Assembly: GCF_014652695.1 (NCBI RefSeq)
Contig: NZ_BMZH01000002.1
Location: forward strand, 62,001 to 126,000
Direction: 5' to 3'
Source: Algimonas arctica
GTDB taxonomy: Bacteria > Pseudomonadota > Alphaproteobacteria > Caulobacterales > Maricaulaceae
Length of the DNA stretch: 64,000 nt
In this document: one piece after another, positions 6,679 to 44,758 of the stretch
How the letters are laid out: each line of letters begins with the position of its first letter
How positions within the stretch are numbered: the first letter of the stretch is position 1
Notes under the pieces: model-generated
The model's input: the letters and a program-made list of their open reading frames with translations, nothing else
The model's database searches: none
Told to the model about the DNA's origin: nothing
Position numbers and translations under genes: made by a program

Positions 6679-7746
6679 ATGAGCAAGACAGCTCTCATCA
6701 CAGGTGTGACAGGACAAGACGGGGCGTATCTCGCGCGGCTCTTGATCGACAAAGGCTACACGGTTCACGGCGTCAAACGCCGGTCCTCCTCTTTCAACAC
6801 ATCGCGGATCGACGATATCTATCAAGATCCACACAGTGATGATCCCAAGCTCATTTTGCATTATGGCGATCTGACCGACTCAACGAACCTCATCCGTTTG
6901 GTGCAGGAAACTAAGCCGGACGAAATCTACAATCTGGGAGCGCAATCCCACGTTCAGGTCAGCTTCGACACGCCGGAATATACCGCCAATAGTGACGCCG
7001 TCGGCACACTCCGTTTGCTCGAAGCGATCCGCATTTTGAAAATGGAAGACAAAACGCGCTTCTACCAAGCGTCAACATCAGAGCTTTACGGATTGGTGCA
7101 AGAAGTCCCGCAAAGCGAGACGACACCTTTTTATCCCCGTAGCCCGTATGCGGCGGCGAAAATGTACGCCTATTGGATCACGATCAACTACCGTGAAGCC
7201 TATGGCATGTTTGCGACGAACGGCATTCTGTTCAACCATGAAAGCCCGCTTCGCGGCGAAACATTCGTGACGCGGAAGATCACCCGCGCCGTGTCCGCCA
7301 TTCACCTTGGCATTCAGGACACGCTTTATCTCGGCAATCTCGACGCACAACGCGACTGGGGCCACGCCAAGGATTATGTCGAAGGCATGTGGCGTATTCT
7401 TCAGCATGACAAGCCGGATGATTTCGTCTTGGGCACCGGCGAAATGCATACGGTTCGCGCCTTTGTCGAAGCCGCCTTCGCCCATGTTGATCGCAAGATC
7501 GAATGGTCGGGCAAAGGGATTGATGAAGTTGGCCGCGATGCAGAGTCCGGCGCCATTATGGTTCGGGTTGATCCGCGTTACTTCCGCCCAACGGAAGTCG
7601 AGCAGCTTCTGGCGAACCCAGCCAAAGCCAAAAGAGATTTGGGCTGGGTGGCAACAACAACATTCCAAGGTCTTGTGTCCGACATGATGGCCGCCGATTT
7701 ATTGCAAGTCGCCAAAGAAATGGACCGTAAGAACCGCTATGACTGA
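6679..7746 (+). CDS. gmd: GDP-mannose 4,6-dehydratase
   Basis: An extended short-chain dehydrogenase of 355 residues from the ATG at 6679; an in-frame TTG 33 bases upstream is less likely. It has the NAD(P) loop [14 protein letters not shown], the GMD-specific [13 protein letters not shown], the catalytic STSELYG with [13 protein letters not shown], and the substrate segment [18 protein letters not shown]. It oxidises and dehydrates GDP-mannose to GDP-4-keto-6-deoxymannose in the cytoplasm. The gene overlaps fcl by eight bases, so both steps to GDP-L-fucose are co-translated. Confidence 0.97.
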
Positions 7747-14142: not shown

Positions 14143-14163
14143 CTTTATAGACACCTTGGTCCT

Positions 14164-15012
14164 TCACATTGCTGCCAGTTCGAATTGGACGGGCGACAGC
14201 ATTCCGTTGTTAGCATGACGACGCTTGGGATTGTAGAACATCTCGATATATTCGAACACGTCCTGTCTGGCATCTACTCTAGTTAAGTAAGTCTTCCTCC
14301 GGATCCGCTCCGTCTTGAGAAGATGGAAGAAGCTCTCTGCAACCGCAATATCGTAACAGTTGCCTCGGCGGCTCATACTCGGGACCAGGTTATGGGCGTC
14401 GAGAAACGATCGCCACTCCTGACTCGAAAACTGTGATCCTTGGTCGGAGTGGACGATCACGCCCGGTGCCGAGCGACGTCTCCAAACGGCCATCATGAGC
14501 GCATCTAGGGCGAGCTTCGTGTGCATACGCGGCTGCATCGACCAGCCCACGACCTTGCGCGAGAACAGGTCGATCACAGCCGCCAGATAGAGCCAGCCTT
14601 CATGCGTCCGGATATAGGTGATGTCGGTGACCCAAACCCGGTCTGGTGCATCTACATTGAAGTCCTGTTGCAGCCTGTTGGCCGCCACCACGGCCGGCTT
14701 GGTGCCATACTTGCCCGGACGACGGCGATAGCCCACCTGAGCTCGCAGCCCGGCGGAGCGCATGATCCGCGCAACCGTGTTGGGCGCACAGGGCTCACCA
14801 GCATCCATGAGGTCATGATGGACCTTGCGATAGCCGTAGATCCCGCCGCTCTCCAGCCACGACTGCTTGGCCAGCTTGCTTAGACGTGCTCGTCGCACGG
14901 TCGTGGGCTTGAGCTCGGCCCTTAGCCAAGCGTAGAATCCGCTCGCATGGACGCCGAGGACACGGCACATGGGTCTTGTCCTGAATAACGTCTGATGGTC
15001 TCTAATAAACAC
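14164..15012 (-). CDS. IS3-family transposase OrfB
   Basis: A 282-residue integrase-core transposase. The HTH_21-like region YGYRKVHHDLMDAG is followed by the DDE triad: VWVTDITYIRTHEGW (Asp), VIVHSDQGSQFSS (Asp) and CYDIAVAESFFHLLK (Glu). The C-terminal RRHANNGMLSPVQFE is typical. It lies six bases after the orfA stop; in this family production usually needs frameshifting from orfA, so the annotated GTG start may not be used. Confidence 0.93.
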   Translation of the reverse strand: MFIRDHQTLFRTRPMCRVLGVHASGFYAWLRAELKPTTVRRARLSKLAKQSWLESGGIYGYRKVHHDLMDAGEPCAPNTVARIMRSAGLRAQVGYRRRPGKYGTKPAVVAANRLQQDFNVDAPDRVWVTDITYIRTHEGWLYLAAVIDLFSRKVVGWSMQPRMHTKLALDALMMAVWRRRSAPGVIVHSDQGSQFSSQEWRSFLDAHNLVPSMSRRGNCYDIAVAESFFHLLKTERIRRKTYLTRVDARQDVFEYIEMFYNPKRRHANNGMLSPVQFELAAM

Positions 15013-23036: not shown

Positions 23037-24005
23037 TCAAGAACCAACAACGCCCCGGAAATAGTCGACCGTCTGTTCTAGGCCCTCCGCAAGCGAAACC
23101 TTTGGTTCCCACCCCAAGCGCGACTTGGCCATCGAAATATCGGGTTGGCGGCGCTTTGGATCATCTTTAGGCAAGGGCAGATGCTCCCTTCTGGAGTTAC
23201 CGCCTACCTGTTCCAAAATAGCGTCACTCAACTCCAGCATCGTGTTTTCGACAGGGTTTCCTATATTGACCGGGCCGGTAAACTCTGGATCACTTCCCAT
23301 CAGACGGATCATGCCTTCAACAAGATCGTCCACATAGCAGAAACTCCGTGTTTGTGAGCCGTCTCCATAAATTGTGATTGGATCGCCTTTCAGGGCCTGT
23401 ACAATAAAATTGCTGACGACCCTTCCGTCTTGTGGGTTCATCCGGGGTCCGTACGTGTTAAAAATGCGCATAACCTTGATTTCAAGATTATGAGAGCGGT
23501 GATAATCGAACATCAAAGTTTCCGCCACCCGTTTGCCCTCATCATAACAACTTCGGATACCAATCGGATTGACGTGGCCCCAGTAACTTTCGACCTGCGG
23601 ATGGACTTCCGGGTCACCGTAAACTTCCGATGTCGACGCCTGAAGGATACGGGCCTGCACGCGCTTGGCCAGACCCAGCATATTCAATGTCCCCATCACA
23701 TTCGTTTTCACCGTTTTAATCGGATTATATTGATAGTGGACGGGTGAAGCCGGACAGGCGAGATTATATATCTGATCGACCTCCAGCAGAATCGGCTCAG
23801 TAATATCGTGACGGATTAGTTCAAAATTAGACTTCCCAAGATTATGGACAATATTGTCCCGCGAGCCCGTGAAGAAATTATCCAAGCAAATGACGTGATG
23901 GCCCTTCTCTAGCAGCCGGTCACATAGGTGAGACCCGACAAATCCCGCGCCGCCTGTAACCAGTACTTTTAGGGGTGTTTTCGTAATTTCAATATTCCTC
24001 ATCAC
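23037..24005 (-). CDS. uxs: UDP-glucuronate decarboxylase (UDP-xylose synthase)
   Basis: A 322-residue extended SDR enzyme. The NAD loop [17 protein letters not shown] is followed by the UXS-specific [33 protein letters not shown], the catalytic Ser-Thr and YxxxK ([20 protein letters not shown]) and [19 protein letters not shown]. It oxidises and decarboxylates UDP-glucuronate to UDP-xylose. It overlaps ugd by four bases (ATGA), so UDP-glucose is taken to UDP-xylose by one operon. Confidence 0.95.
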
Positions 24006-26977: not shown

Positions 26978-27841
26978 ATGAAAACGCCAAAAATATTTAT
27001 GTCGTCGGGAGCTTTTGGCCGAGGCTCATTGTCCGCAATAACTTCGGGAGCGCGAGCCTGGGGGATTTCTAACATTGAGTTAACAGCAAATCTGGAAACA
27101 GAAGAGTGTTGGAGGTCAGCCATATTAGACAAGAGTGAATTCAGTTTCTTATTACATAACTACTTCCCTCCTCCTCCTAGCCCCTTCGTCCTAAATTTAG
27201 CATCTGAAGACATGGCTACCTTGCAACTTAGTCTCGAACACTGCCGGAAGGCTATCGACTTATCCCAATCCGTAGGCAGCCCTTATTACAGTGTTCATGC
27301 GGGATTTGCAGCATTGGTGCGGCCAGAGCATCTTGGAAAAGGAATCCCTGCGGACATGCGCACTGATAGAAGAAAAGCCATTAAGACTTTCGAAAAATCG
27401 GTCTGCGATCTAGTGGAATATGCGGCTTCCCATAATGTGGTGCTTCTAATAGAAAACAATGTTGTCGAGCCCGTCAACTTAATCAACGGCGAAAACGAAA
27501 TGTTACTCTTGGCTAGCGGAGAGGAAATTAGCGAGTTCGCTGCTCGATTTTATGGGCCTAATTTCGGTATGCTGATAGATGTCGCGCATATGAACGTATC
27601 TTGTCAATCGCTAAAGCTAGATCGTGAAGCTTTCACTGAGATGGTTGCCCCCTTCACAAAAGCGCTCCATCTCAGCGACAATGACGGCTTTCGGGACTCC
27701 AATGAGCCGTTTGACAGATCCTCTTGGATTGTCGAAACACTCGGCGCTTTCGAAGTTGATTATGTTGTGATCGAATCTTATCGCCTCAATAAATCTCAGG
27801 CGCTCGAATGCATTGATGCCGTGGAGTTTGCATATGAGTAA
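26978..27841 (+). CDS. Sugar phosphate isomerase/epimerase-like TIM barrel protein
   Basis: A 287-residue protein from the ATG at 26978, of the xylose-isomerase-like TIM-barrel superfamily (AP endonuclease family 2). Segments that fit metal-ligand positions are YYSVHAGFAA (His), VVLLIENNVV (Glu), NFGMLIDVAHMNVS (Asp, His), KALHLSDNDGF (His, Asp) and DYVVIESYR (Glu). Members isomerise or epimerise sugars, inososes and related keto compounds using a divalent metal. The substrate is unknown. As first gene of an operon with NeuB- and CMP-synthetase-like enzymes, it may help make the six-carbon precursor of the nonulosonate; this is inference. It overlaps the next gene by eight bases. Confidence 0.78.
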   Translation: MKTPKIFMSSGAFGRGSLSAITSGARAWGISNIELTANLETEECWRSAILDKSEFSFLLHNYFPPPPSPFVLNLASEDMATLQLSLEHCRKAIDLSQSVGSPYYSVHAGFAALVRPEHLGKGIPADMRTDRRKAIKTFEKSVCDLVEYAASHNVVLLIENNVVEPVNLINGENEMLLLASGEEISEFAARFYGPNFGMLIDVAHMNVSCQSLKLDREAFTEMVAPFTKALHLSDNDGFRDSNEPFDRSSWIVETLGAFEVDYVVIESYRLNKSQALECIDAVEFAYE

Positions 27842-29315
27842 GTCCTGTTTGCCCGATGACCTTTGCATCGGCGACGCCGTTTCTTTGAGGCAGGCGCTTT
27901 TAAGTCTTGATAGAAGTGGTATGCGCATCCTCTTTGTTACCAATAGTAAGAAAAAATTGGTTGGGGTTCTGACAGATGGAGATGTGCGACGGGGCTTGAT
28001 TGCTGGCTTTACACTTGAGGAAAAGATTTCGAATGTGATGAACAAAAACTTCGTCTCGTATAACGATACGATGAAAGATAATGTTTTAAAGCAGTCATTG
28101 AGCGATCGTATTTCAGTAATTCCGTTAGTAAATGATGACGGCGAAGTAACACGTTTTGTTTTTAATTCTGATCCAACCTTCATTCCGGCAGCCCAGCCAT
28201 CTCTAAAAGGTAATGAGCTGGCCTATACCCTAGATTGCATTAAAAGCGGATGGATATCGTCACAGGGAGCCTATGTTGGCGCATTTGAGAAAGCGTTTGA
28301 GCAAAAGACCGGCACCTTAAACGCAGTTAGCGTCTCAAATGGTACAGTGGCACTTGTCTTAGCTTTGTCAGCACTTGGTGTCGGTCCGGGCGACGAAGTC
28401 ATTGTTCCGGATCTAACTTTTGCTGCGTCTCTAAACGCGGTGATTCATGTTGGCGCTACACCGGTAATAGTTGATATTGAGTTACCCAGTTTGTCGATGG
28501 ACCCTAAGGCAGTCGCGGCGGCAATAACAAATCAAACAAAAGCGATTATGCCCGTCCATCTTTACGGACAAATGTGCGAAATGGATGAGCTCGTCAGAAT
28601 TGCAAAGGAAAATGGGATCCTCATTGTTGAGGACGCGGCTGAAGCGCTAGGGTCTGAATATAAAGGTCGTCATGCGGGAACGATTGGCGATGCGGGTACC
28701 TTTTCTTTCTTTGCTAATAAATTGATCACGACCGGAGAGGGCGGAATGGTGGTATTCAAGGACCCGGAAGTTGCAAAGCGTGCTCGTATCCTACGAGATC
28801 ACGGAATGGACCCCGCAATGCGCTACTGGCATCTTGAGGTGGGGCACAATTTCCGTATGACCAATATTCAAGCCGCCATTGGACTTGCGCAACTTGAGCG
28901 CTTTGATGAGCTTTTGGGCGCGAAATTGGCTATAGCTAAGCACTACACTGAACGGCTATCTGATTTAAGTGATGATTTCCTGCTTCCGTCTGCGCGTCCA
29001 AGTACGCTTCATAGTTTCTGGAATTACGTCGTCTTGTTGCGTGACCCCGATTCACTTGTACGAGGGAGTCGATTGATCGATTTTATGAACTCAAATAGGA
29101 TTGAGGCGCGGAGATTGTTCTTTCCAATGCATATTATGCCTCCATACCAACACCTGAGTTTTTCTGGCTCTTACGACAACAGCATATCGGCTTCTAACCG
29201 CGGGTTTGCGCTGCCATGCTATATCGGGCTTAGTGAACAAGAAATCGACGATATTTGTAGTATACTCCGCAAAGGGGTTGATATGTTGGATGTTGAAAGG
29301 TGGGCTCGAGTTTAA
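27834..29315 (+). CDS. CBS-domain pair fused to a DegT/DnrJ-type aminotransferase
   Basis: A 493-residue protein from the ATG at 27834. Residues 1 to about 118 form a CBS pair (RILFVTNSKKKLVGVLTDGDVRRGLI; ISVIPLVNDDGEVTRFV). From about residue 130 comes a complete PLP aminotransferase: SVSNGTVALVLAL, VGPGDEVIVPDLTFAASLNAV, VHLYGQMCEMDEL, IVEDAAEALGSEYKG and the PLP lysine in FANKLITTGEGGMVV. The catalytic half resembles the LegC type, which aminates C4 of UDP-4-keto sugars in legionaminate synthesis. In Campylobacter PtmE the CBS pair is attached to a nucleotidyltransferase, so attachment to the aminotransferase is unusual. CBS pairs usually bind adenosyl or cytidyl nucleotides and may give feedback control. 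Confidence 0.88.
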   Translation: MSKSCLPDDLCIGDAVSLRQALLSLDRSGMRILFVTNSKKKLVGVLTDGDVRRGLIAGFTLEEKISNVMNKNFVSYNDTMKDNVLKQSLSDRISVIPLVNDDGEVTRFVFNSDPTFIPAAQPSLKGNELAYTLDCIKSGWISSQGAYVGAFEKAFEQKTGTLNAVSVSNGTVALVLALSALGVGPGDEVIVPDLTFAASLNAVIHVGATPVIVDIELPSLSMDPKAVAAAITNQTKAIMPVHLYGQMCEMDELVRIAKENGILIVEDAAEALGSEYKGRHAGTIGDAGTFSFFANKLITTGEGGMVVFKDPEVAKRARILRDHGMDPAMRYWHLEVGHNFRMTNIQAAIGLAQLERFDELLGAKLAIAKHYTERLSDLSDDFLLPSARPSTLHSFWNYVVLLRDPDSLVRGSRLIDFMNSNRIEARRLFFPMHIMPPYQHLSFSGSYDNSISASNRGFALPCYIGLSEQEIDDICSILRKGVDMLDVERWARV

Positions 29316-29317
29316 TC

Positions 29318-30040
29318 ATGACAGCGCGCTTGGCGACAATTTTAGCCCGAGCTGGTTCGAAGGGGCTCCGTGACAAAAACATCCGTCCGTTTCTGGGGGA
29401 GCCCTTGCTTGTGCGTTCGGTGAAGCAAGCTCTAAACTGCGGTGTTTTTGACGCTGTCGCCTTTAGCTCAGACAGTGAAGAATACCTTGAGATCGCACGA
29501 GCAGCAGGGGCCCATGTACTTGTTAGAAGACCAGTTGAGTTTGCGACCGATGCGATAACGAAGTTACCGGCCATTCGACAAGCTGCTAATCTAGCCGAGT
29601 CCGAGCTCGGTCAACGTTTCGATGTCATCACTGACTTAGCCGTGACATCCCCTATGCGCAGTGATCAAGATATATTAGGGGCTGTAAGCTTACTTGAAAA
29701 CCTTAATGCACGTTTGATCCTAAGTGCGTGTTTAGCAAAAGATAATCCCTACTTTAATTTAGTAGAACCGATAGAGGGGAGTCAGGGTTTTGCACTATCC
29801 AAAGTCATCGATAGGAAAATATCCGCTCGTCAGGCAGCGCCCGAGGTATTTGCTCTCAACGGTGCAGTTTATGTTTGGGCTCGAGAAGAGCTCCTAAAAA
29901 CCGATGATTCAGTTGTACGAGGTTATGCACGCATCTTTCAAATGAACCATGAACGTTCAATTGACATCGACACCGAATTGGATTTCAAAATCGCAGAGTT
30001 TCTGTGCATAAGCCGATTAAAAGGAAATATAAATGGTTGA
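29318..30040 (+). CDS. Acylneuraminate/nonulosonate cytidylyltransferase (CMP-sugar synthetase)
   Basis: A 240-residue protein from the ATG at 29318. The CTP-binding P-loop-like motif ARAGSKGLRDKNIRPF is at residues 7-22 and the family motif VRRPVEFATDAITKLPA follows. It contains DLAVTSPMRSDQDI and the metal-binding end HERSIDIDTELDFKIAE. The family (NeuA, LegF, PseF) activates nine-carbon acidic sugars to CMP-sugars. Which nonulosonate it accepts cannot be told. The stop overlaps the start of the synthase gene. Confidence 0.93.
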   Translation: MTARLATILARAGSKGLRDKNIRPFLGEPLLVRSVKQALNCGVFDAVAFSSDSEEYLEIARAAGAHVLVRRPVEFATDAITKLPAIRQAANLAESELGQRFDVITDLAVTSPMRSDQDILGAVSLLENLNARLILSACLAKDNPYFNLVEPIEGSQGFALSKVIDRKISARQAAPEVFALNGAVYVWAREELLKTDDSVVRGYARIFQMNHERSIDIDTELDFKIAEFLCISRLKGNING

Positions 30041-31100
30041 TAATAATCTTATCAATGCTGCCGTCCAGGCAAATCGCTGTTTCATTATCGCGGAAATAGG
30101 CGTAAACCACAATGGTGATATTGCCACAGCCAAAGCGATGATAGATGCTGCGGCTGAGACCGGTGTCGATGCTGTGAAGTTCCAAATATATCGAACCGAA
30201 GAGTTAGTAACACCGCATGCTAATAAGGCTGCGTATCAACTTGCGACGACCGGAGCGAAAGATGCTCAACAATGGTCGATGCTTAAGGCATTGGAGCTGA
30301 CTAACGAACAACACCGTACATTAAGAAACTATTGCAGTGAAATTGGTGTCCCATATATTTGTACTCCATATGATATTGCTAGCGCGCGTTTTCTCGCGGA
30401 AGAACTTGAAGTAGCGGCAATCAAAGTAGCCTCCTCTGATGCAACGAATATACCATTTTTGCGTAATCTTGATGATCTGGATTGCCCTGTAATTCTCAGC
30501 ACTGGCATGTGTTCAATTGACGAGGTGCGCGCTGCAGTGGCTGCGCTCGCAAAAACAAATGATAGAGGTGAACTTTACGTCTTGCAGTGTACTTCAAATT
30601 ATCCGGCCCCGGCTGAGGAAGCTAACCTTCGAGTGATGAGCAGAATGTTCATAGAGTTCGGGTGTCCAGTCGGCTTCTCAGACCACACGGTTGGGTCTGA
30701 GGTCGCGATACTTGCGGTCGCGCATGGGGCCCAGATTATAGAGAAACACTTTACGCTTGATCGCTCAATGATAGGGCCGGACCACTTAGCATCCTCGGAG
30801 CCCTCTGAATTCGCAGACCTTGTCGCAAGTTTAAGACGTGTAGAACTAATTCTCGGCTCGCCGGACAAAACAGTCACTGATGCAGAGCGCGAAAATAAGT
30901 CCTTGATGCAAAAAGGTGTCTATTTCAGACACGCTAAAACTGCTGGTGAAATTATCGCTATAGAAGACGTCGCATTCAAACGCCCGGCTGCCACGCTTTC
31001 CCCTGCTGACGCCGATAAAATAGTGGGAAAAGCTCTGGCGTATGATGTTGCAAAGAACCAAGCTGTAGAATGGATGTGTTTCACAACTGTGAAACAATGA
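30033..31100 (+). CDS. neuB: NeuB-family nonulosonate synthase
   Basis: A 355-residue protein: an N-terminal TIM barrel (FIIAEIGVNHNGDIATAKAMI, VDAVKFQIYRTEELV, PYICTPYDIASARFL, AIKVASSDATNIPFL, VILSTGMCSIDEV, LQCTSNYPAPAEEANLRVM, VGFSDHTVGSEVAILA, IIEKHFTLDRSMIGPDHLAS) followed by a C-terminal SAF/antifreeze-like domain (GVYFRHAKTAGEIIAIEDVAFKRP). It condenses phosphoenolpyruvate with an N-acylated 6-carbon sugar to give a nine-carbon 2-keto acid. Neuraminate, legionaminate or a relative are all possible. Coupled to genes on both sides by overlaps. Confidence 0.94.
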   Translation: MVDNNLINAAVQANRCFIIAEIGVNHNGDIATAKAMIDAAAETGVDAVKFQIYRTEELVTPHANKAAYQLATTGAKDAQQWSMLKALELTNEQHRTLRNYCSEIGVPYICTPYDIASARFLAEELEVAAIKVASSDATNIPFLRNLDDLDCPVILSTGMCSIDEVRAAVAALAKTNDRGELYVLQCTSNYPAPAEEANLRVMSRMFIEFGCPVGFSDHTVGSEVAILAVAHGAQIIEKHFTLDRSMIGPDHLASSEPSEFADLVASLRRVELILGSPDKTVTDAERENKSLMQKGVYFRHAKTAGEIIAIEDVAFKRPAATLSPADADKIVGKALAYDVAKNQAVEWMCFTTVKQ

Positions 31101-31762
31101 AATCAGGTTCCTTAGCAAACGTCGAAAAAGCTATCGTTCTGGGGACGGGCGGTCATGCTCGAGCCTTGATAGCCACAGCGAACCTCATAGGCAGATATGA
31201 ACTTATGGGAATTCTTGACAGAACTGGTCCAACACCAGGCGAAACTATCATGGGTTTACCCGTTATAGGGCTATGGAACGACCTATGGCAGCTTCGAGGA
31301 ATGGGCATAACGTCAGCGTATCTAGCCTTAGGAAATAACGCCACGCGTCGCGAAATGTTTCAGCGATGTGAGGAAAGCGGCCTCAAGTTGCCAGCGCTCG
31401 TTCATCCCAGCGCCTTCGTTGACCCCACCGCTCATATTGGGGACGGAGCCTTAGTGTGCGGCGGAGCTTTCATTGGCCCGGAAGTCGAAATTGGAAAAGG
31501 TGTAATAGTCAATACGGGTAGCAGTGTTGACCACGAGAGCATAATTGAAGACTTTGTCACCGTTTCTCCCGGCGTTGTAATTGCTGGTCGGGTCGTAATT
31601 GGGCAAAATGCATTTTTAGGCATTGGCGCTTGCATCAGCGACAATGTTTCAATTGGCTCGGGAGCTCGCGTGGGGGCCGGAGCAATCGCTTTAAAGGATA
31701 TTCCGGAAAATGTTCTAGTTGTTGGCGTTCCTGCATGCATTAAATCAACCGACTTAAGCTGA
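31097..31762 (+). CDS. NeuD-type nonulosonate acetyltransferase
   Basis: A 221-residue protein from the ATG at 31097 (ATGA overlap with neuB). The N-terminal sugar-binding part has AIVLGTGGHARALI, and from about residue 90 a left-handed beta helix of hexapeptide repeats begins, with the catalytic histidine in SVDHESIIEDFVTVSPGV, ending in VVGVPACI. NeuD/PglD/LegH relatives acetylate the sugar hydroxyl or the C4/C7 amino group before or after condensation. It may act on the product of the adjacent aminotransferase. Confidence 0.9.
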   Translation: MKSGSLANVEKAIVLGTGGHARALIATANLIGRYELMGILDRTGPTPGETIMGLPVIGLWNDLWQLRGMGITSAYLALGNNATRREMFQRCEESGLKLPALVHPSAFVDPTAHIGDGALVCGGAFIGPEVEIGKGVIVNTGSSVDHESIIEDFVTVSPGVVIAGRVVIGQNAFLGIGACISDNVSIGSGARVGAGAIALKDIPENVLVVGVPACIKSTDLS

Positions 31763-31775
31763 TTTAAAAAAACTA

Positions 31776-33071
31776 ATGTCACTGTTTAATAAACTAGTTC
31801 AGGGGGCGTTGAAGCAAAAGACTGCGGCTGTATACCTGATTGGTAATATCCTTGCCGCCGCAGTCCCTCTCATCCTATTGCCCGTTCTAACGCGAATTCT
31901 CGACACAAAGGAATATGGTAAGATCGCCGTATTTCAAGCCGTGGTCACGTTATCCTTAGCGATAGTTGGTCTAGCCACCGGGGGCGCTATTAAACGTCAT
32001 TTCTTCACAACACAGGACAAGAATCCAGAGATGGATTACGCGCAATACGTAGCGGCTGCGTTGACCATTCTTGCGATTACTTTTGCCTTTATGCTCGCGC
32101 TTGTTATCGTCCTTGGGCCAAGTGGCGAGCCTTATATTGGTTTGGAAACGCCGGTTATCGCACTGGGTGTCGTGGCCGCGTCCACCGGCTTTATAGTGAA
32201 CATCAGATTAGCAGACTATCAAATCCGCGGTCAACCACTGCCGTTTGCCGTATTTCAAGTTGGACAATCTCTTACAAACCTACTTATTTCGATCGCAATA
32301 GTCTTCTTTATCTTCCAGACCGCAAAAGGTCGAATTTTGGGGATAGTTATCTCGTCGGGCTTAGTTGCTTGTATAGCGATGTTTTCACTACTTCGTGATA
32401 AGCGGATACACTTTCCTCCAAAAGTTGGAATGATACGCGATGCGGCAATGTTTGGGGCCCCCTTAATACCACATACGATAGGGCAATTTTTACTAGGCTC
32501 TTTTGACCGATTCGTTCTTCAAACTTACGAAGGGTTAGAGGCTGTGGGGCTATACGCCGCAGCAATACAGCTGACCTTTATAATCCGAGTGATCAATGAT
32601 GCTATCAATAAGACTTTCCAGCCTTGGCTTTTTGATAAGCTTTCAGGTACAAACGTAGAAAATGCGGAAATTGTTGGTATTTATTATCAGTTGATCGCTA
32701 TGACATTTATTATCGCGGTCATTTTTGGACTTACTTCAGGATGGATAATTGCATTGCTTCTTGGACCTCAGTTTGCTCAGGCGGGAAGCATCCTGCCAAT
32801 TCTAGCCCTCGGGATGGCTTTTCACGGGGTGTACCTTTTCCTCGTGAACATTTTAATGTACGAACGGAGAACCGGAGCGTTAGCTTTATCGACGATTTTT
32901 CTTGGACTTTTGCAGGTCATTTTGCTTTTCGTATTAGTTCCGGCATTTGGTATTATGGGAGCAGCCATAGCCTTCACGGTCGCTTCGGCCTTTCGCGCCG
33001 GCGGAATTCTCACGCTTTGTCATATTGTTTATCCGATGCCTTGGTTTAATCCAAAATTTAGGCGAAATTAG
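31776..33071 (+). CDS. wzx: Wzx-type lipid-linked oligosaccharide flippase
   Basis: A 431-residue membrane protein with about twelve hydrophobic segments, of the polysaccharide-biosynthesis (MOP) superfamily. The start AAVYLIGNILAAAVPLILLPVLTRIL with a proline-rich first helix and a following DTKEYGKIAVFQAVV is typical of Wzx. It would move the undecaprenyl-linked repeat unit across the inner membrane. It sits among sugar-activation genes and directly before a putative transferase and Wzy. Confidence 0.9.
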   Translation: MSLFNKLVQGALKQKTAAVYLIGNILAAAVPLILLPVLTRILDTKEYGKIAVFQAVVTLSLAIVGLATGGAIKRHFFTTQDKNPEMDYAQYVAAALTILAITFAFMLALVIVLGPSGEPYIGLETPVIALGVVAASTGFIVNIRLADYQIRGQPLPFAVFQVGQSLTNLLISIAIVFFIFQTAKGRILGIVISSGLVACIAMFSLLRDKRIHFPPKVGMIRDAAMFGAPLIPHTIGQFLLGSFDRFVLQTYEGLEAVGLYAAAIQLTFIIRVINDAINKTFQPWLFDKLSGTNVENAEIVGIYYQLIAMTFIIAVIFGLTSGWIIALLLGPQFAQAGSILPILALGMAFHGVYLFLVNILMYERRTGALALSTIFLGLLQVILLFVLVPAFGIMGAAIAFTVASAFRAGGILTLCHIVYPMPWFNPKFRRN

Positions 33072-35108: not shown

Positions 35109-35987
35109 GTGATCAAAACTTCATCAAATCCTAGCTGGCTATTCTCTTATGGAATGCCCAAGTCTGGAACCACGACCCTGAGCAGCATCCTCGGTTTAAG
35201 CCCTGATATTTCGGTGCATTTCGCTAAAGAGCCAAACGATTTTATTGATCGGCTTCCGTCTGAACTTCCAAATTTTTCCGGTTATCAGATTAAAAAAACT
35301 ACTAAGTATCTGGCAGATTTTTCAACTCAATACGGCACTGAACTGAATAGAAATTATTTTTTGGAGAATCTAGAGGCCGTAGGCTTACTTTGTTCTAGTC
35401 GGTTTATTTTTTCCCTCCGAGAACCTAGGGCGTTATCTAAAAGCTATTTTGGCCATTTGACAAGACAATCAGGCCTCGATCCTAAGAAAGATGCATCGAT
35501 CATTAGCAACCGCATCAACAGTGCGATTGACTACCGCAGCTCCATTAACCTGTTAACTGCTATCGTTAAGCCAAGCCAGATCTTTGTTGTTAATTTCAAT
35601 GATTTGATGGAGCTCGATTCACAGCAGCGCCTAGCCAATCAGTTGTGTGTTTGGCTAGGAGTACCCCCAATTAAGGTTATGGAGGTCGTGCGACGGAACA
35701 CTGCTAAGACTGCCCGGCGTTATTCTGCCCCAATAGACAAGTTGATTTCATCCATGCGCCGTATAAATTTGGTGCGTAGCTTGCCACCAAATGTTAGATC
35801 GAGCATAAGCTACTTGCTGTCTCATAAGATTAACGAAGAAACCATTCGCTTCGATGTTGAAGAATGGGTAAATATTATTCGCCTTAAAGATTCTGAGTCC
35901 TTTTTTAATAATCTGGTCAGTGGCCCACTTGATAATTCTCCGTCTGATGTTTTATCGGACTGTCTACCTCAAAGTGACGCGTGCTAA
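35109..35987 (+). CDS. PAPS-dependent carbohydrate sulfotransferase
   Basis: A 292-residue protein starting at GTG 35109, four bases after the wzy stop. The PAPS 5'-phosphosulfate loop GMPKSGTTTLSSIL is at residues 15-28 and the 3'-phosphate loop RFIFSLREPRALSKSYFGHL near residue 98 (Arg and Ser). It transfers sulfate from PAPS to a sugar hydroxyl. The exact acceptor is unknown. No PAPS-synthesis gene (cysD/N/C) is in the window. Confidence 0.88.
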   Translation: MIKTSSNPSWLFSYGMPKSGTTTLSSILGLSPDISVHFAKEPNDFIDRLPSELPNFSGYQIKKTTKYLADFSTQYGTELNRNYFLENLEAVGLLCSSRFIFSLREPRALSKSYFGHLTRQSGLDPKKDASIISNRINSAIDYRSSINLLTAIVKPSQIFVVNFNDLMELDSQQRLANQLCVWLGVPPIKVMEVVRRNTAKTARRYSAPIDKLISSMRRINLVRSLPPNVRSSISYLLSHKINEETIRFDVEEWVNIIRLKDSESFFNNLVSGPLDNSPSDVLSDCLPQSDAC

Positions 35988-35989
35988 TA

Positions 35990-36709
35990 ATGCCTAAGAT
36001 AATTAAACTTCGAAACAGTATTTCATCGGTTGCCTTGCGTACCTATTTTCGAACAGAGCGACGACGAAAACAGAATTTTGTTATTACTGGATTTCCGAAA
36101 AGCGGAACGACTTGGGTAAGTCAACTTATGGCAGCTAGTTGCGGATATGAGTATACCCGAAATAGAATTGAGATCCGTTTAACCAATACCTTATTACATA
36201 CTCACAGTACAAGCTTTGAGGGTAATGCAAACCTACTTTATGTAGTCCGCGACCCTCGTGAAACACTTTGTTCCGCAGCTCGAGCGCTCAGTCCGACGAC
36301 GTCGAGAATTGTTTATGATGAGAAAGGTATGATTCACCCTTCCTTCGCCGACTATGTTATTAAGCATATGCCCGGCGCTACATGCTCTATGAAGTCTCAC
36401 CTAAACGCGTGTCTTGACAGTCGCTGGACAGTGGTGCGTTTCGAAGATGTCAAACGCGACCCTCTCTCCACACTCACTCACGTCGTCAAACAGACCGGCC
36501 ATTCTGTATCGCAAGAAGTAATTAGAAGTTCCATTGAAGAACTAGATTTCAATCGGCTAAAGAAAGCTTCAACTGATGATCGTTTTCTAGCTAAAAGTAG
36601 CATAGATACTTGGCGAACATTGTTAAGTGCAGAGGTTATACAGATGTTAAATCACGCCCTGGGTGATGCGCCCCGACAATTCGGTTATTTTCTTGAAGAT
36701 CAGTCCTGA
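35990..36709 (+). CDS. Second PAPS-dependent sulfotransferase
   Basis: A 239-residue protein from the ATG at 35990, two bases after the previous stop; a GTG at 35981 is an alternative. It has the classical Sulfotransfer_1 motif VITGFPKSGTTWVSQLM and the 3'-phosphate loop YVVRDPRETLCSAARAL, closer to aryl/carbohydrate sulfotransferases than the gene before it. The C-terminal WTVVRFEDVKRDPLSTL is family-typical. Two different sulfotransferases in tandem suggest sulfation at two positions of the repeat unit. Confidence 0.88.
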   Translation: MPKIIKLRNSISSVALRTYFRTERRRKQNFVITGFPKSGTTWVSQLMAASCGYEYTRNRIEIRLTNTLLHTHSTSFEGNANLLYVVRDPRETLCSAARALSPTTSRIVYDEKGMIHPSFADYVIKHMPGATCSMKSHLNACLDSRWTVVRFEDVKRDPLSTLTHVVKQTGHSVSQEVIRSSIEELDFNRLKKASTDDRFLAKSSIDTWRTLLSAEVIQMLNHALGDAPRQFGYFLEDQS

Positions 36710-39369: not shown

Positions 39370-40850
39370 ACGTCTGACACCCAGAGGTAAGCGCCGCTGG
39401 CCACAGGATATGAAGGCCCTGATTGTCGCCGAGAGCCTGGTTGAGGGCGCAACAGTGAGCGGGACCGCGCGGCGGAATGATCTCGCACCTAACCATCTCT
39501 CCGATTGGCGCAGTCAGGCCTGGTAAGGCAAGCTGATTCTGCCTGTGCTTGAGCCATGATATTGGGTTTGTTCCTTCAGGATCGCACCGGGCAATGACGT
39601 CACCCCGTCGCCTTCAAACGATTGTGCCTGGGCAAACCAATCGACACTGAGTATCATCAAGAACGGTGTTACCATAAGACTGCACAGCAGCACGCCTCCA
39701 CGCCGTATCGGCGAGATTACGGCCGCGATATGATCCATCCAGGATATGGCGTTCAGATCTACGTCGCCACCAAGCCTGTCGACTTCCGCAAGGGTTATGA
39801 CGGGTTAGCGGCGATCGTGCAAAGACATCTAAAGGGGGATCCGTTTAATGGCGCAGTCTATGTCTTCCGTGCCAAACGGGCAGACCGTCTCAAACTGATT
39901 TACTGGGACGGCATGGGACTGGTCTTGGACTATAAACGGCTGGAGCAGCATGCATTCAAGTGGCCAGCTATCCGGGACGGTGTTTTGACCCTGAACGCCG
40001 CCCAGTACGAAGCGCTCTTTGCCGGACTGGACTGGCGGCGGGTGACGGCTCTGTGCGCACGCGCACCCATTGCGGCGGAGTGAATCAGGGGTCCGTTTAA
40101 ACACCCCTTTTAGGCCTGTTTTTGCTAAGACGGCTATGTGGTTCTGAGCGCCGATCTTCCGTCCGATGTGACGACATTGCAAGCGGGCCTGATGGCGTCG
40201 GAGGCCCGTAACGCCCGGCTCGAATCTCAGGTTGCGTCCTTCCGCCAAGCGATGTTCGGGCCCAAATCGACGTCGATCAGCTAGCGTTTGCGCTTGAGGA
40301 TATCGAGACGCAGTCCGCGGTGGTCGGCGGCCTCATTGCCCCCGCGCCCAGCGAGGCTGCGTAAAGCAAACCTTGGGTTCTTACCCAAGCACCTTCCCCG
40401 CTTGGAAGAGATCATCCACCCCGATAGTCTGGTCTGCGCCTGCGGGTCCGATCGCCAGGTAATCGGCGAGGATGTCAGCGAGCGTCTGGATGTGATCCCC
40501 GCAAACTTCCACGTTCTGGTCACGCGCCGTCCCCGCTATGTCTGCCGGGCGTGCGAAGTCGGCATCACACAAGCGCCAGCAAAACCGCATATTATAACCG
40601 GTGGTCTCCCGACGGACGCGACGCTCGCCCATGTGATAGTCAGTAAATATGACGACCATCTGCCGCTCTACCGCCAGTCCCAGATCTAGGCCCGTCAGAG
40701 TGTAGAAATCGACCGCTCCACATTGTCCGGATGGGTCGGCCGCGCCGCGTTCGAGTTGTGGCCCGTCGCCTGCGCGCTCATGGACCATCTCAAGACTGGG
40801 GCCAGTTGTTCATGGATGAGACGCCTGCGCCGATCCTGGGTCCGGGCAGG
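39370..40850 (+). mobile_element. Degenerate IS66-family element
   Basis: Remains of the three IS66 genes in order. tnpA-like at 39385-39530 ([39 protein letters not shown], then stops). tnpB at 39730-40083. tnpC-like at 40138-40850 with several stops and frameshifts: SEARNARLESQVASFRQAMFG, then HLPRLEEIIHPDSLVCACGS, RRPRYVCRACEVGITQAP and ALMDHLKTG. It marks the right border of the AT-rich island. Confidence 0.85.
39730..40083 (+). CDS. IS66 family TnpB accessory protein
   Basis: A 117-residue protein from the ATG at 39730. The IS66 Orf2 signature IYVATKPVDFRKGYDGLAAIVQ and VYVFRAKRADRLKLIYWDGMGLVLDYKRLE are intact, with the typical end LSAAQYEALFAGLDWRR-like. It is the only uninterrupted gene of this element, whose tnpA and tnpC are broken, so it is unlikely to be functional in transposition. 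Confidence 0.88.
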   Translation: MIHPGYGVQIYVATKPVDFRKGYDGLAAIVQRHLKGDPFNGAVYVFRAKRADRLKLIYWDGMGLVLDYKRLEQHAFKWPAIRDGVLTLNAAQYEALFAGLDWRRVTALCARAPIAAE

Positions 40851-41215
40851 TCAACATCATGACGGGACGGCCCTGACTATCGACGAAGGCATGAAGCTTT
40901 GAGTTCAGCCTGCCTTTGATGCGCCCGATACGTCAGGGAGCATCTCCTTTTTTAGCAGACTGGATGCAGTGCGATGGGCTTTGAGATGTGCGATATCGAT
41001 TATCATCGTGTCCGGCGGGTCTTTTTAAGCCGTCAAGCGGCTGATAATCTCTTTGAAGACGCCTATTTTACTTAACCGGATGAAGCGATTGTAGAGTGTT
41101 TTATGTGCCCCGTATTCAGACGGGGCATCCCGTCAGCGAAAACCATTTTTGATGACGAAAATGATCCCCGGCACGAAGCGCCGATAATTCACACACGGAA
41201 TCCCGTAAGACAAAC
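40850..41215 (-). pseudogene. IS5-family transposase relic
   Basis: Reading the minus strand from about 41215 gives RRFVPGIIFVIKNGFR, a stop in place of the conserved tryptophan, RDAPSEYGAHKTLYNRFIRL, KIGVFKEIISRLTA, a stop, then PPDTMIIDIAHLKAHRTASS and LLKKEMLPDVSGASKAG. This is the N-terminal and first-catalytic-Asp region of IS5 (IS427-like) transposases. Multiple stops make it dead. It abuts the IS66 relic. Confidence 0.8.
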
Positions 41216-41286
41216 AGATAAAGGGTGGCGGTCCCGAAAGTGCCTTGCTCAGTGGTTCGCAGCAGATGCCGCAGGCGGCTATCCAC

Positions 41287-42183
41287 TTACTTCCGAGCCT
41301 CCATATATATAGAAATTGGAGGATGTGTATTGTCAAAATATCGTGTGTTGCGCATTGCTGGGCAATGGCTCTGTCCGTATCCAGAGCGATAGACCGTGTC
41401 AAAGCCCGCTTCTGCGAGCATCCTGCGAAGCTTATTCTCATTCCACCAATTAATATGGTTTCCAGGGTACTTTCTTTGAGTGTCAATAGAAGCTCGCCCC
41501 TTTACCTCATCAAGAGCCGCCTCATATTCCATCCTGTTAAAGATGTCCTTCAATTCGCCATCATCAATTGTCCTTGCATTGGTATCTGAGTGATTAATCG
41601 AAACGCTCGATGCAAGATGAAAAACAAACCTCTGAGCAGAAGTCATATCTTTCCCCGGCTGGTTTAATCGAGCTGATGGATAAAGAGAAGGGTCGCTGTG
41701 GCGTTTGTTGTCAAACCAATAAAAATATAACAAATCGTTTTCAATGTAGGCTCGATAATCAAGATCGATATCAGGAGTTGTTACGCGAAGGAACCCACCA
41801 GGCTTTAAAATTCGATATGCTTCAGAGAACATATTTTTCACCGCTTCATCAGTGATATGTTCTACTGTGTGACTTGTATAAACAGCCTCAGCAATCCCAT
41901 CGTCCACTCCAAGTGGCTTAAGTTCGAGCAAATCCCAATCAATAGCTACATTGTCTTTTAGTTTATATTTATACCATTCGCTATGATGATCCACATTAGT
42001 CCAGTGAGGGTGAGAGAAACCTCCTGCCCCAATGTTGTAAAAACGTTTGCAATTGATACTTTCATTGGGGTAAAATTCCTTTAGGCGGCTGAGATTTTCT
42101 TTAGGCATGCGCAATAATTCATAACCAAACTTCTGCGCAAGTTTCCGCGCATACACTGTTGAAATTGACTTAAGTTTTGACAT
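41287..42183 (-). CDS. Class I SAM-dependent methyltransferase (type 11)
   Basis: A 298-residue protein. KRFYNIGAGGFSHPHWTNVDHHSEWY near residue 46 is a variant motif I, and EAVYTSHTVEHITDEAVKNMFSEAYRILKPGGFLRVTTPD is the classical Methyltransf_11 core (motifs II/III). The remainder (HLASSVSINHSDTN, NHINWWNENKLRRMLAEAGF) is common in methyltransferases of polysaccharide loci. The codons are AT-rich like the 26978-39249 operon, so it may be a detached part of that island. The acceptor is unknown. Confidence 0.85.
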   Translation of the reverse strand: MSKLKSISTVYARKLAQKFGYELLRMPKENLSRLKEFYPNESINCKRFYNIGAGGFSHPHWTNVDHHSEWYKYKLKDNVAIDWDLLELKPLGVDDGIAEAVYTSHTVEHITDEAVKNMFSEAYRILKPGGFLRVTTPDIDLDYRAYIENDLLYFYWFDNKRHSDPSLYPSARLNQPGKDMTSAQRFVFHLASSVSINHSDTNARTIDDGELKDIFNRMEYEAALDEVKGRASIDTQRKYPGNHINWWNENKLRRMLAEAGFDTVYRSGYGQSHCPAMRNTRYFDNTHPPISIYMEARK

Positions 42184-42520
42184 CGAAATCCGGTTCCTTC
42201 AGTTTAGTCATCGTTCCGTAAACAGGATTCGGAACGTCTACATTAATTCCGTTCTGAGTCCAGATCAATAACTGACTTGTCCGGGAGCCTCGCGGTCCTC
42301 CTGTTGGCGGACTACGCCCCGCGCTCTCCCTCCACACCTCCGCCGCCCGCCGGGCTGGCCTCCAGCTGTGGCTTTTCCTGCTGCTGCCCGCCTACTGGCC
42401 CACACCCGGGGCAGCGCGAGACCTCGCCCGAGACACGGCCCACTAGCGCAAGACTGAGCGTGGAGCTACCACCCGACCACAAATTGTGCTTGGATCAATC
42501 CACGGGAAACGATGGGAAAG
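42184..42520. other. Abrupt base-composition junction, no gene seen
   Basis: About 340 bases. The first 80 bases are AT-rich like the gene to the left; from about 42277 the sequence becomes very GC-rich with long pyrimidine-rich runs. Open frames here lack recognisable similarity. Confidence 0.4.
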
Positions 42521-42655
42521 ATGACAAGATTGCCGCACCCGATTCCCTGCCAGGCCGCGAGCGCCGATGATTGACGACTACCTACCCAAGAACATCAAGA
42601 AGTTCTACGAACCGTTTTCCGGCTCTACGGCCATAACGATCCACGCCGCGCACCC
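42521..42655 (+). pseudogene. D12-class adenine DNA methyltransferase, N-terminal relic
   Basis: An ATG at about 42521 gives MTRLPHPIPCQ, then a frameshift to IDDYLPKNIKKFYEPFSGST and AITIHAA. This is the start of a D12-class (Dam-type) N6-adenine methylase: PHPIPYQGSK, then F/YxEPFxGSGA, the SAM-binding motif. The catalytic DPPY part is missing. It is probably phage- or plasmid-derived debris. Confidence 0.6.
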
Positions 42656-43159
42656 CGTTCGACGGCTTCGACACCACGCAGGTCGCGGCAAAGGAGGCGG
42701 ACGGCTTCTCCCCCTGCGTATTCCTGGACGATGCCTTGGGCACATACACTGGCCCAGACCGCGGAGCGTGACACCGCGCGAGGCCCGCGACCGGCGGATT
42801 GTTGAGGGCATGGCCACCGTGTTCCCGCCCGACCTGCGCTTGGCGCAGGAGGCCCTGCTGCGCTACGCAGAATAGTGCGTCCCCGGCGCATGGCCAGACG
42901 TGCCGAGCGTTATCCGGTTCGCCGGAGCCTATGGCGTGGACGTACAAGAACTGGGCTCGATGGCAGTCATCATTTCCTTCCGCCTGATCATCCGCGCGGC
43001 AAGGTGGTATGGGTAGCCAGTCAGCGGCACCCGGAGATTGTCGTGCGTACGCTTCCTGACAGGCTCACCCGGCGTGTCCTGCGGTCCTGCGTCTGCTTCG
43101 TCGCCACCGCCCCACCCGCGGCGAGCGGGCGCGCCATGTCGACTGACCCTGCATTCGGC

Positions 43160-43200
43160 AGTATCCGGGGGGGGGGCGGTTGGCGCCACCCCCGGATACT
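43160..43200. repeat. Perfect 12-bp inverted repeat
   Basis: AGTATCCGGGGG at 43160-43171 and its exact complement CCCCCGGATACT at 43189-43200, with a 17-base GC-rich loop. It has no T-tract, so it is not a simple terminator. It could be a protein-binding or processing site of the old mobile element. Confidence 0.85.
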
Positions 43201-43211
43201 TGAAAAAGTGG

Positions 43212-43243
43212 GCCGCGCCGGTGTGATCCAGCGCGGCGTTTTT
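43212..43243 (-). terminator. Rho-independent terminator, bidirectional
   Basis: Stem GCCGCGC/GCGCGGC (7 bp) with a 12-base loop. It is followed by GTTTTT on the plus strand and preceded by AAAAAGTGG, which gives a T-tract on the minus strand. Before the IS at 43272 inserted, it lay about 20 bases after the stop codon of the minus-strand gene now at 44141-44680. Confidence 0.75.
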
Positions 43244-43271
43244 GGGGTGGTGGTCAGATTATGGCCCGGAT

Positions 43272-44145
43272 GGTAATACCCCCAATTTCTAGTGGGGTTC
43301 ATAAGTAGGCTCGTTTTTAAGCGGCGCGTTTCATGTGCCGCTTAAGTTTTGGGCGGGGGTTATCCCGCCTATCGCCATGTTAGGGCGCTCATTATTGTAA
43401 GCTCATAACCAATGAGTGGCTGAGGTTTGGGCTCTGTCGATGCTCATAAACATGTGCTAATTCAGCCAGTCATATCTGACTGTGCAATTGTATCGCTCGA
43501 CATAAGCCATTCCGCGCCCTTTCCTCGCTTCGCGCGGGCGCTTCAAATGTTGTGGGTTGGCCAGTTGGATAAATATGATCGCAATGCTGTGTTTCTTTGC
43601 CCAGGCCGCCAAGGCTTCACTGATATATTCAGGGCCATTATCACAGCGGAAGGCCTTGGGCATACCACGCCATTCAATGACCCGATCCAAGGCCCTCATG
43701 ACCCGCGGAGCCGGCAGAGAGGTATCAACCTCGATCGCTAAGTCTTCTCTGTTGAAGTCATCGATGACGTTGAAGGCTCTAAAGCTGCGCCCGTTTGACA
43801 ACTCCACATGCATAAAGTCCATCGACCAAGTCAGATTGACAGCGTCCGGCACGGCCAAAGCCGTAGGCGTCTGCCGTTTGAGCCGCCGTCTGGGCTTAAT
43901 GCGCAGGTTTAGCGAAAGTTCGCAGTAGATCCGGTACACACGCTTATGATTTCAGCCAAAGCCCTTCACGTTGCGAAGATATAAAAAGCACAGTTAAAGC
44001 CCCACGTTCGATTGGTCTCCGTCAGGGTTTGAAGCCACTGCGCAATCACAGCATTCTCATGGGACAGCTTGGGCTGATAACGATAGCAACTCTCGCTGAT
44101 GGTAAATTCTACTTATGAACTCCGTTAAATAATGGGGGTATTACT
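43272..44145 (-). mobile_element. IS3-family element, internally deleted, with 4-bp target duplication
   Basis: Outer ends GGTAATACCCCC at 43272 and GGGGGTATTACT ending at 44145 are inverted repeats. The four bases outside each end are GGAT (43268-43271 and 44146-44149), a target-site duplication. The interior keeps an orfB-like frame (43457-43939) but no orfA. At about 870 bp it is shorter than a normal IS3 element. Confidence 0.82.
43457..43939 (-). pseudogene. IS3-family transposase OrfB fragment
   Basis: It starts [20 protein letters not shown] and contains [20 protein letters not shown] (first Asp) and [14 protein letters not shown] (second Asp). The segment before the catalytic Glu is replaced: [20 protein letters not shown], then [14 protein letters not shown]. 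The usual start and end of OrfB are missing. Confidence 0.82.
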
Positions 44146-44680
44146 GGATGGCTTCCAAAGAGTTGCGGCTCATCGGTCTGCCAAGGCGAAAATTCTCTGC
44201 GACCTCTGCCACGATCGGCGCGATTTTCATTATCCCGGCTGCCTGCGTCGGGTCATGGCCATTAGTCTTCCAGAGGGTCAGTGCGGTCCAACGTCCGTTC
44301 CGGTCTATGTCATCGCCCGTGCTGCGCTGCACCACCTTGCTGATCAAATCACGCAACGAGGCAAAGTCTGGGGCAGGGTGGTCGTAGTCATCAACGCCTT
44401 CCGCCCGGGCCAGCGCCTCGGCAGAGACCCAGATGGTGTTCGCCCCGTCTTCCGGCCCGTTGTCCGCTTCTTTTGCCAGCGCCTCGCCGATGATGACCGC
44501 CGCCTCTGAAAGGGGCCAACAGAGGTCATCAATCGTTGCCTCAATCGCCATCACCGCGACCTTCAACGCGGCCAGCGGAAGCGGGCGGTGGTCAAGGCCG
44601 TCCACTTCCGGTCCCGCCTTGATGTCCTTGATCAGCCGCGTTACGGCGCGCAACGCTGCGAGTAGGCGGTGGTCGCCCAC
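44141..44680 (-). CDS. Hypothetical accessory protein, 3' end replaced by IS insertion
   Basis: A 179-residue protein from GTG 44680 with no family recognised; it is helical and acidic, with Ala/Leu-rich segments (LAALKVAVMAIEATIDDLCW; PIVAEVAENFRLG). Coding signs are coherent amino-acid composition and a terminator in the right place. The IS at 43272-44145 sits in its last codons: it now ends EAIQ-stop, and removing the IS plus one GGAT copy restores EAIRAII-stop. The change is small, so the protein may still work. It follows the 97-residue gene on the same strand with about 80 bases between. Confidence 0.55.
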   Translation of the reverse strand: MGDHRLLAALRAVTRLIKDIKAGPEVDGLDHRPLPLAALKVAVMAIEATIDDLCWPLSEAAVIIGEALAKEADNGPEDGANTIWVSAEALARAEGVDDYDHPAPDFASLRDLISKVVQRSTGDDIDRNGRWTALTLWKTNGHDPTQAAGIMKIAPIVAEVAENFRLGRPMSRNSLEAIQ

Positions 44681-44758
44681 GTTTTATTCTTCACCAATCG
44701 GGTGTTCCTTTCATGATTTGGAGGAGCGCCGCCCGGCACCCACCGGGCGGCGCGGGTT

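Follow-up and report, generated by a model that had tools for sequence, protein, structure and literature searches.

The type of a nonulosonate is usually predicted from the NeuB synthase, the aminotransferase and the epimerase or hydrolase that accompany it. Several described systems come close to the operon that is the subject of this work, which lies at positions 26978–31762 of a stretch of the Algimonas arctica genome (contig NZ_BMZH01000002.1; "the window" is this whole stretch, 64,000 nucleotides long). In Kdn biosynthesis a sialic acid synthase acts on mannose or mannose 6-phosphate, a manno-configured precursor that requires no 2-epimerase. The GDP-(N-acetyl)perosamine operons contain Gmd, Per and a PerB-type enzyme. 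Campylobacter jejuni makes CMP-legionaminate by a GDP-linked pathway (LegB, LegC, LegH, LegG, LegI and LegF). Bacillus subtilis makes legionaminate from UDP-GlcNAc by the UDP-linked sps pathway (SpsM, SpsC, SpsD, SpsG, SpsE and SpsF), in which SpsM is a separate dehydratase and SpsG the hydrolase (PMC7439481). We rate the A. arctica operon, whose five genes are listed here, as a novel variant of nonulosonate biosynthesis.

26978..27841, + strand: TIM-barrel protein, xylose-isomerase-like, 287 residues (PF01261, 68 bits)
27834..29315, + strand: CBS domain(s) fused to a DegT/DnrJ/EryC1/StrS aminotransferase, 493 residues (PF01041, 402 bits; PF00571, 27 bits)
29318..30040, + strand: CMP-nonulosonate synthetase, CTP_transf_3 (PF02348, 71 bits)
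30033..31100, + strand: NeuB/LegI-type nonulosonate synthase (PF03102, 289 bits)
31097..31762, + strand: NeuD/PglD/PerB-type left-handed beta-helix sugar acetyltransferase (TIGR03570, 214 bits, cut-off 161)

The five frames are all open and tightly packed, with junctions, read from the sequence, of 8-, 8- and 4-base overlaps and one 2-base gap. NeuB and a CTP_transf_3 synthetase occur together in this one operon, the general mark of nonulosonate biosynthesis, and the more specific models come close or fall short: NeuB reaches 380 bits on TIGR03569 (cut-off 400) and the cytidylyltransferase 107 bits on the PseF model, under its cut-off of 206. Within 26978–31762 there is no dehydratase and no hydrolysing epimerase. 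The initial annotation, made from the sequence alone, had listed the same genes. The TIM-barrel protein is indeed the first gene, and the synthase, synthetase and NeuD-type acetyltransferase stand as family matches, but the label "LegC-like" for the aminotransferase reflects no more than its nearest NCBIfam model, LegC, missed at 341 bits against a cut-off of 420; among solved structures perosamine synthases are closest.

With the C. jejuni pathway the operon shares the NeuB/LegI synthase, the cytidylyltransferase, a left-handed beta-helix acetyltransferase and a DegT aminotransferase. It differs in that a TIM-barrel gene is added and that the aminotransferase is CBS-fused and perosamine-synthase-like, while the genome has neither a LegB over cut-off nor a LegG-family match. 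The sps pathway has the synthase, synthetase, acetyltransferase, aminotransferase and a PglF/SpsM-like dehydratase in common with A. arctica, in whose genome no PseG/SpsG-type hydrolase was found and which has the TIM barrel instead. Gmd, an aminotransferase and a NeuD-family acetyltransferase are shared with the perosamine operons (compare an Escherichia coli plasmid polysaccharide locus), from which the A. arctica genes differ by the CBS fusion and by NeuB and the CMP-synthetase, which would make the hexose a nonulosonate.

The absence of a hydrolase extends beyond the operon. The genome (3.25 Mb, 49 contigs, 99.98% complete) has a single NeuB match, the operon copy. It contains no match to PF02350, the NeuC/LegG/WecB family, in a search that was positive in 11 of 14 control genomes, and none to the PseG/SpsG model TIGR03590, which matched in five of the controls (two over cut-off) and matches in B. 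subtilis. Neither hydrolase family familiar from nonulosonate pathways was thus found, which bears out the claim that LegG/NeuC is missing. LegB (TIGR04180) is likewise not found over cut-off genome-wide (best 139.6 vs 475; 1/14 controls over cut-off), but the claim of a missing dehydratase holds for the operon and for LegB only. A 663-residue CapD protein of PglF/SpsM-like type is encoded on contig 15, a different contig from the operon, and its segment S-T-D-K-A-V-D-P-V-N-V-M-G-A-S-K conforms to the T-x9-M-x3-K triad of SpsM/PglF relatives; Gmd is encoded in the window. Because Gmd and CapD are present elsewhere in the genome and SpsM is a separate dehydratase in B. subtilis, an operon without a dehydratase is not in itself strange. 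The absent hydrolase is decisive and the absent dehydratase is not. One candidate for LegB, at window positions 23037–24005, was rejected at 132 bits against the cut-off of 475; it adjoins a UDP-glucose-dehydrogenase-like gene, which suggests a UDP-xylose synthase.

Recurrence of the TIM-barrel gene with its partners

The TIM-barrel gene and the CBS-fused aminotransferase occur together with NeuB, CMP-synthetase and acetyltransferase at three loci: the window, an Azospirillum plasmid and a contig of a metagenome-assembled genome (MAG). The window protein matched one of 72,556 plasmid records, Azospirillum sp. TSA2s p2, at 38.8% identity over 98%. There the order is amidotransferase, CMP-synthetase, TIM-barrel protein and CBS-aminotransferase, with GNAT, NeuB and a hexapeptide acyltransferase on the opposite strand 3–5 kb further on. 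When genome contigs were scanned by pattern with the window protein, 65 candidate stretches came up, none of them confirmed; the same kind of scan with an alignment of the window and Azospirillum sequences found CAJVXH010000060.1 (uncultured bacterium), where NeuB, GNAT, the TIM-barrel protein, CBS-aminotransferase and CMP-synthetase form a single run. Directly after this set (L016, 13075–15077) stand a DHDPS-family aldolase and a diverged second NeuB-like protein with 27% identity to the window NeuB.

A looser fourth cluster, G712, came from a class-wide profile search of 385 genomes. It reads NeuB, Gfo/Idh oxidoreductase, TIM-barrel protein, an aminotransferase without CBS, a CBS-fused nucleotide-sugar dehydrogenase, SDR, CMP-synthetase, HisF-like, HisH and then a putative amidotransferase, the last by our own reading and with no Pfam match. 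Its CBS domains (L023, 6362–8050) show that such fusions occur on differing enzymes of nonulosonate clusters. The Gfo/Idh gene may be explained by comparison with PtmF, a legionaminate-cluster protein that has been described as an oxidoreductase (PMC4481668).

The TIM-barrel gene and its partners therefore recur in two other organisms and loosely in a third, and the aminotransferase lies directly 3' of the TIM-barrel gene in all four clusters. The four TIM-barrel proteins share only 24–39% pairwise identity. The association of the gene with its partners is, by this divergence, old, and recent co-transfer is excluded. Since the TIM-barrel protein has the same kinds of neighbours in these other organisms, it is unlikely to be unrelated to the pathway of the operon.

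The TIM-barrel protein was found in 1/60 genomes of a search of relatives (A. arctica itself), in 2/398 of a phylum search with the single protein (A. arctica and G332), in 3/385 of the class search with the profile at E 1e-8 (A. arctica, G712 and G762), in 1/398 of the phylum search with the profile at 1e-15 (A. arctica) and, among 39 genomes from the phylum of the MAG searched at 1e-10, in the MAG alone. Pattern scans of viral contigs confirmed none, and tblastn against phages gave no match at E 0.01. G332 was dropped as a member (26% identity over query residues 87–250, E 4.7e-4), as was G762, which matches profile positions 68–234 only; judged by their first residues, the neighbouring frames of both include no NeuB or CMP-synthetase, no family search of them having been made. 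Three weak plasmid matches (Leptolyngbya, Aulosira and Microvirga) were set aside, the neighbours in the first two being mostly annotated as hypothetical, so that they may include nonulosonate genes.

Where such a module occurs with no recognised hydrolase, predictions of nonulosonate type from the usual genes could miscall legionaminate. PF02350 has two matches in the MAG, whose completeness is not given: one a non-hydrolysing WecB (284 bits, cut-off 210), the other below cut-off. It has none on Azospirillum plasmid p2, the replicon that the search covered. Another unusual nonulosonate gene set lies on a Pseudohalocynthiibacter aestuariivivens plasmid (L015, 10010–15231), where an aminotransferase of the CBS-fused kind precedes genes for asparagine synthase, a protein of the aldolase/citrate-lyase family and NeuB, with neuC and amidotransferase/HisH genes nearby.

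The aminotransferase and the source of the hexose

The PDB entries closest to the window aminotransferase are perosamine synthases (363 bits), as compared with 186 bits for 1o61, which we take to be PglE. The MAG aminotransferase reaches 399 bits against perosamine synthase, whereas a control CBS-aminotransferase from Rhodobacteraceae SC52, in a neuB/neuC/SDR locus, scores 330 bits with 1o61 and 244 with perosamine synthase. On these scores the window and MAG enzymes are GDP-perosamine-synthase-like and the SC52 enzyme is PglE-like. The LegC model gives 367 bits with a gmd-linked and 373 with the neuC-linked aminotransferase. On one plasmid of E. coli and one from Rickettsiales, relatives of the window enzyme adjoin gmd, and one in Caballeronia lies in a gmd/manC locus; the relatives whose neighbourhoods were examined are not a random sample. 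A further relative, the long DegT aminotransferase of a Sinorhizobium fredii plasmid (L013, 9875–11365), has an N-terminal extension with no Pfam CBS match, and its locus reads as GDP-heptose genes (nucleotidyltransferase/HAD, kinase).

Three gmd-linked aminotransferases and two neuC-linked ones each have a fixed residue, different between the groups, at 28 alignment columns. Of these columns the three TIM-cluster enzymes share 21 (window), 23 and 19 with the gmd type, as compared with 3, 1 and 1 for the neuC type; the common gmd-type columns may be ancestral. A first tree of 14 rows was poorly resolved, and four long rows (win_5192, L027_own, L011b and L023_TIM2) were dropped. In the resulting unrooted 10-row tree the neuC pair is split from the other eight at 100/100, with 2/7 inner branches starred, this split being one of them, and the TIM-cluster enzymes not resolved.

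The dehydratase that would supply the 4-keto sugar is encoded in the window:

6682..7746, + strand: Gmd, GDP-mannose 4,6-dehydratase, proposed supplier of GDP-4-keto-6-deoxy-mannose (TIGR01472, 587 bits, cut-off 415)

Gmd is found over cut-off on the cluster's own contig or plasmid in all three strict cases (window, MAG and Azospirillum p2), 5 kb upstream of the cluster in the MAG. From the affinity of the aminotransferase and the presence of Gmd we tentatively propose a CMP-activated nonulosonate made through a GDP-mannose branch and not by a UDP- or GDP-GlcNAc route. Gmd would give GDP-4-keto-6-deoxy-D-mannose, which the CBS-fused aminotransferase would convert to GDP-perosamine; its CBS part may control this committed or branch-point step in response to a nucleotide. 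The NeuD-type enzyme would N-acetylate GDP-perosamine, and the sugar would then be freed from GDP, with the TIM-barrel protein as the candidate enzyme. NeuB would join the 4-acetamido-4,6-dideoxy-D-mannose to phosphoenolpyruvate, and the cytidylyltransferase would activate the product to its CMP form. This product would be 7-acetamido-3,7,9-trideoxy-D-glycero-D-galacto-nonulosonate, in other words 7-acetamido-9-deoxy Kdn, which is the analogue of legionaminate with a hydroxyl at C5. As in the making of Kdn from mannose, a manno-configured precursor requires no 2-epimerase, here with 4-acetamido-4,6-dideoxy-mannose as the proposed substrate instead, which would explain the absence of NeuC/LegG. 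If the hexose originates from GDP-mannose, only release is missing from the recognised genes; the TIM-barrel protein could supply it, and each of the five genes would then account for one step.

This path from GDP-mannose through N-acetylperosamine to a sugar of the 7-acetamido-9-deoxy-Kdn type, with the TIM-barrel protein giving release or isomerisation, is our tentative preference, favoured over the alternatives but short of probable. The initial suggestion of a different route to the precursor gains from the aminotransferase and from Gmd. Its other suggestion, a new nonulosonate, is predicted by reasoning and becomes likely only if the hexose does derive from mannose. In that case the substitution pattern, a hydroxyl at C5 and an amide at C7, would be new, perhaps along with the enzyme that releases the sugar from its nucleotide. 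In the open-licence literature, papers on perosamine and on nonulosonates were found whose accessible parts draw no pathway link between the two, and no 5-hydroxy-7-acetamido nonulosonate is seen in the parts consulted of papers on 7-acetamido or trideoxy sugars. No paper there joins CBS domains, or perosamine with sialic acid synthase, to nonulosonates, and among the matches listed no xylose-isomerase-like or sugar phosphate isomerase-like protein is tied to their biosynthesis.

The TIM-barrel protein and the competing pathways

For the step assigned to the TIM-barrel protein, no known enzyme family was found in the genome. The step would perhaps be a metal-dependent hydrolysis of the GDP-sugar, perhaps an epimerisation or isomerisation next to the aminotransferase step. 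The protein shares with the AP_endonuc_2 proteins (D-tagatose 3-epimerase, endonuclease IV) the predicted fold and an E-D-H-E metal site, at sequence similarity that is marginal. Residues E159, D201, H231 and E266, which we take to be the E-D-H-E metal ligands of the D-tagatose 3-epimerase-type fold, are invariant in all four TIM-barrel proteins, and alignments to solved structures span parts of this site. All four proteins keep H60, H107, H204 and D240 as well. In E. coli endonuclease IV (Nfo) we confirmed H69, H109, E145, D179, H182, H216, D229, H231 and E261, presumably its zinc ligands. The window protein is identical at seven of these nine positions as the alignment is printed and at eight with a shift made by eye: its H60 aligns to Ala, and Nfo H69 stands eight columns further on, before a matching segment (PFVLNL vs SYLINL). 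At the ninth position N242 stands opposite Nfo H231, where the G712 protein has His. By printed columns, the E. coli proteins UlaE, Hyi and YcjR have five each and YgbM six; the G332 protein has seven.

A phmmer search of the PDB with the protein gave nothing at E 0.01, and its profile reached 28.6 bits at best, which is marginal. The profile scores with UlaE (10.7 bits), Hyi (6.8) and Nfo (2.9) are all marginal too, so neither a hydrolase nor an epimerase is proven.

Several results weigh against the proposed pathway from GDP-mannose. An AlphaFold2 model of the TIM-barrel protein built from two sequences is of moderate quality (mean pLDDT 68.8, pTM 0.74), and Foldseek places D-tagatose 3-epimerase-like structures at the top (E 1.8e-11, TM 0.65); the best 50 of its 1838 matches consist of sugar epimerases and isomerases together with uncharacterised proteins and include no hydrolase. 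A distant Leptolyngbya relative whose role is not known has nine of the nine endonuclease-IV-like positions. Gmd lies ~19 kb upstream of the operon, and since the gene after it scores over cut-off as a GDP-fucose synthase (NF047922, 521 bits, cut-off 500), it has another use; it is common, being over cut-off in 6/14 control genomes, three co-occurrences carry little statistical weight, and G712 has no Gmd over cut-off. The G712 aminotransferase scores best on the PseC model, and a Bradyrhizobium relative of the window aminotransferase has no gmd in view. NeuB, finally, points to no different substrate: the window enzyme shares 45, 41 and 38% identity with the NeuBs of the TIM clusters and 42 and 44% with two from neuC-containing loci, equally close to both, and it was rejected as a discriminator.

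Contrary to the fold ranking, the extra residues of the TIM-barrel protein lean towards a multi-metal site. For a plain 3-epimerase, then, the predicted fold speaks in favour and the aligned residues speak against. That the operon makes a new nonulosonate through GDP-N-acetylperosamine and that its endonuclease-IV-fold protein is at the same time a new nucleotide-diphosphate-sugar hydrolase, replacing the NeuC/LegG and PseG families, is an unlikely conjunction.

The alternative that survives best, though we consider it doubtful, is ordinary legionaminate, with the TIM-barrel protein in place of LegG and with NeuB and the synthetase leading to CMP-Leg5Ac7Ac. Starting from UDP-GlcNAc, the TIM-barrel protein would have to cover both LegG functions, alone or together with some enzyme yet to be recognised. 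The CapD homologue with its triad could act as SpsM does in the B. subtilis route, although it is unlinked to the operon, and the hydrolase of that route, SpsG, has no counterpart by the PseG model in A. arctica. The fold of the TIM-barrel protein is closest to sugar 3-epimerases, and NeuB and NeuD resemble the usual ones, but the aminotransferase sides with perosamine synthases and not with 1o61. Two of the TIM clusters also come with acetamidino-type genes, a kind known from legionaminate clusters, identified in Azospirillum by annotation and in G712 by family match for HisF/HisH and by reading only for the amidotransferase. The two hypotheses differ in the mass of the free nonulosonate, 293.11 Da (C11H19NO8) for the sugar derived from mannose and 334.14 Da for Leg5Ac7Ac.

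The constant position of the TIM-barrel gene directly 5' of the aminotransferase gene would also fit an action on the keto-sugar before transamination, as a ring-ketone epimerase or 3,4-keto-isomerase like YcjR or IolI, which would give a stereo- or positional isomer, with release left to an unrecognised general hydrolase. E. coli YcjR, presumably a member of the same fold family, is annotated as a 3-dehydro-D-guloside 4-epimerase, and Foldseek puts the protein among epimerases. We find this distinctly improbable: no gene is left for the release step, the profile scores –0.5 bits on YcjR, and the extra His and Asp residues are mostly missing from the four E. coli isomerases and epimerases.

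Genomic setting of the operon

Immediately 3' of the operon the window continues with a further gene of the same strand:

31776..33071, + strand: Wzx-type flippase (PF01943, 66 bits)

The flippase is followed by two sulfotransferase-like genes and by glycosyltransferases, which make a surface polysaccharide the most likely destination of the nonulosonate product. From the TIM-barrel gene through these downstream genes the G+C content is 0.43–0.50, as against 0.53–0.55 in the other stretches measured. The low G+C and the absence of the TIM-barrel protein from the 59 other genomes of the search of relatives indicate that the block is probably an import. That the operon is simply incomplete, its missing steps supplied by unrelated or unassembled genes or lost in a decayed import with the TIM-barrel protein as an unrelated passenger, would accord with this low-G+C block, the transposase-like frames nearby, the absence from relatives and an assembly in 49 contigs, but we judge it the least probable explanation given the 99.98% completeness, the open, closely packed frames and the recurrence with the same partners in two other loci and similar ones in a third at identities too low for recent co-transfer.

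Transposase-like frames, read from translations only, flank the low-G+C polysaccharide block at window positions 13232–15012 and 39622–47020. The adjacent sulfotransferase-like pair, at 35109–36709, suggests that the surface polymer is sulfated.

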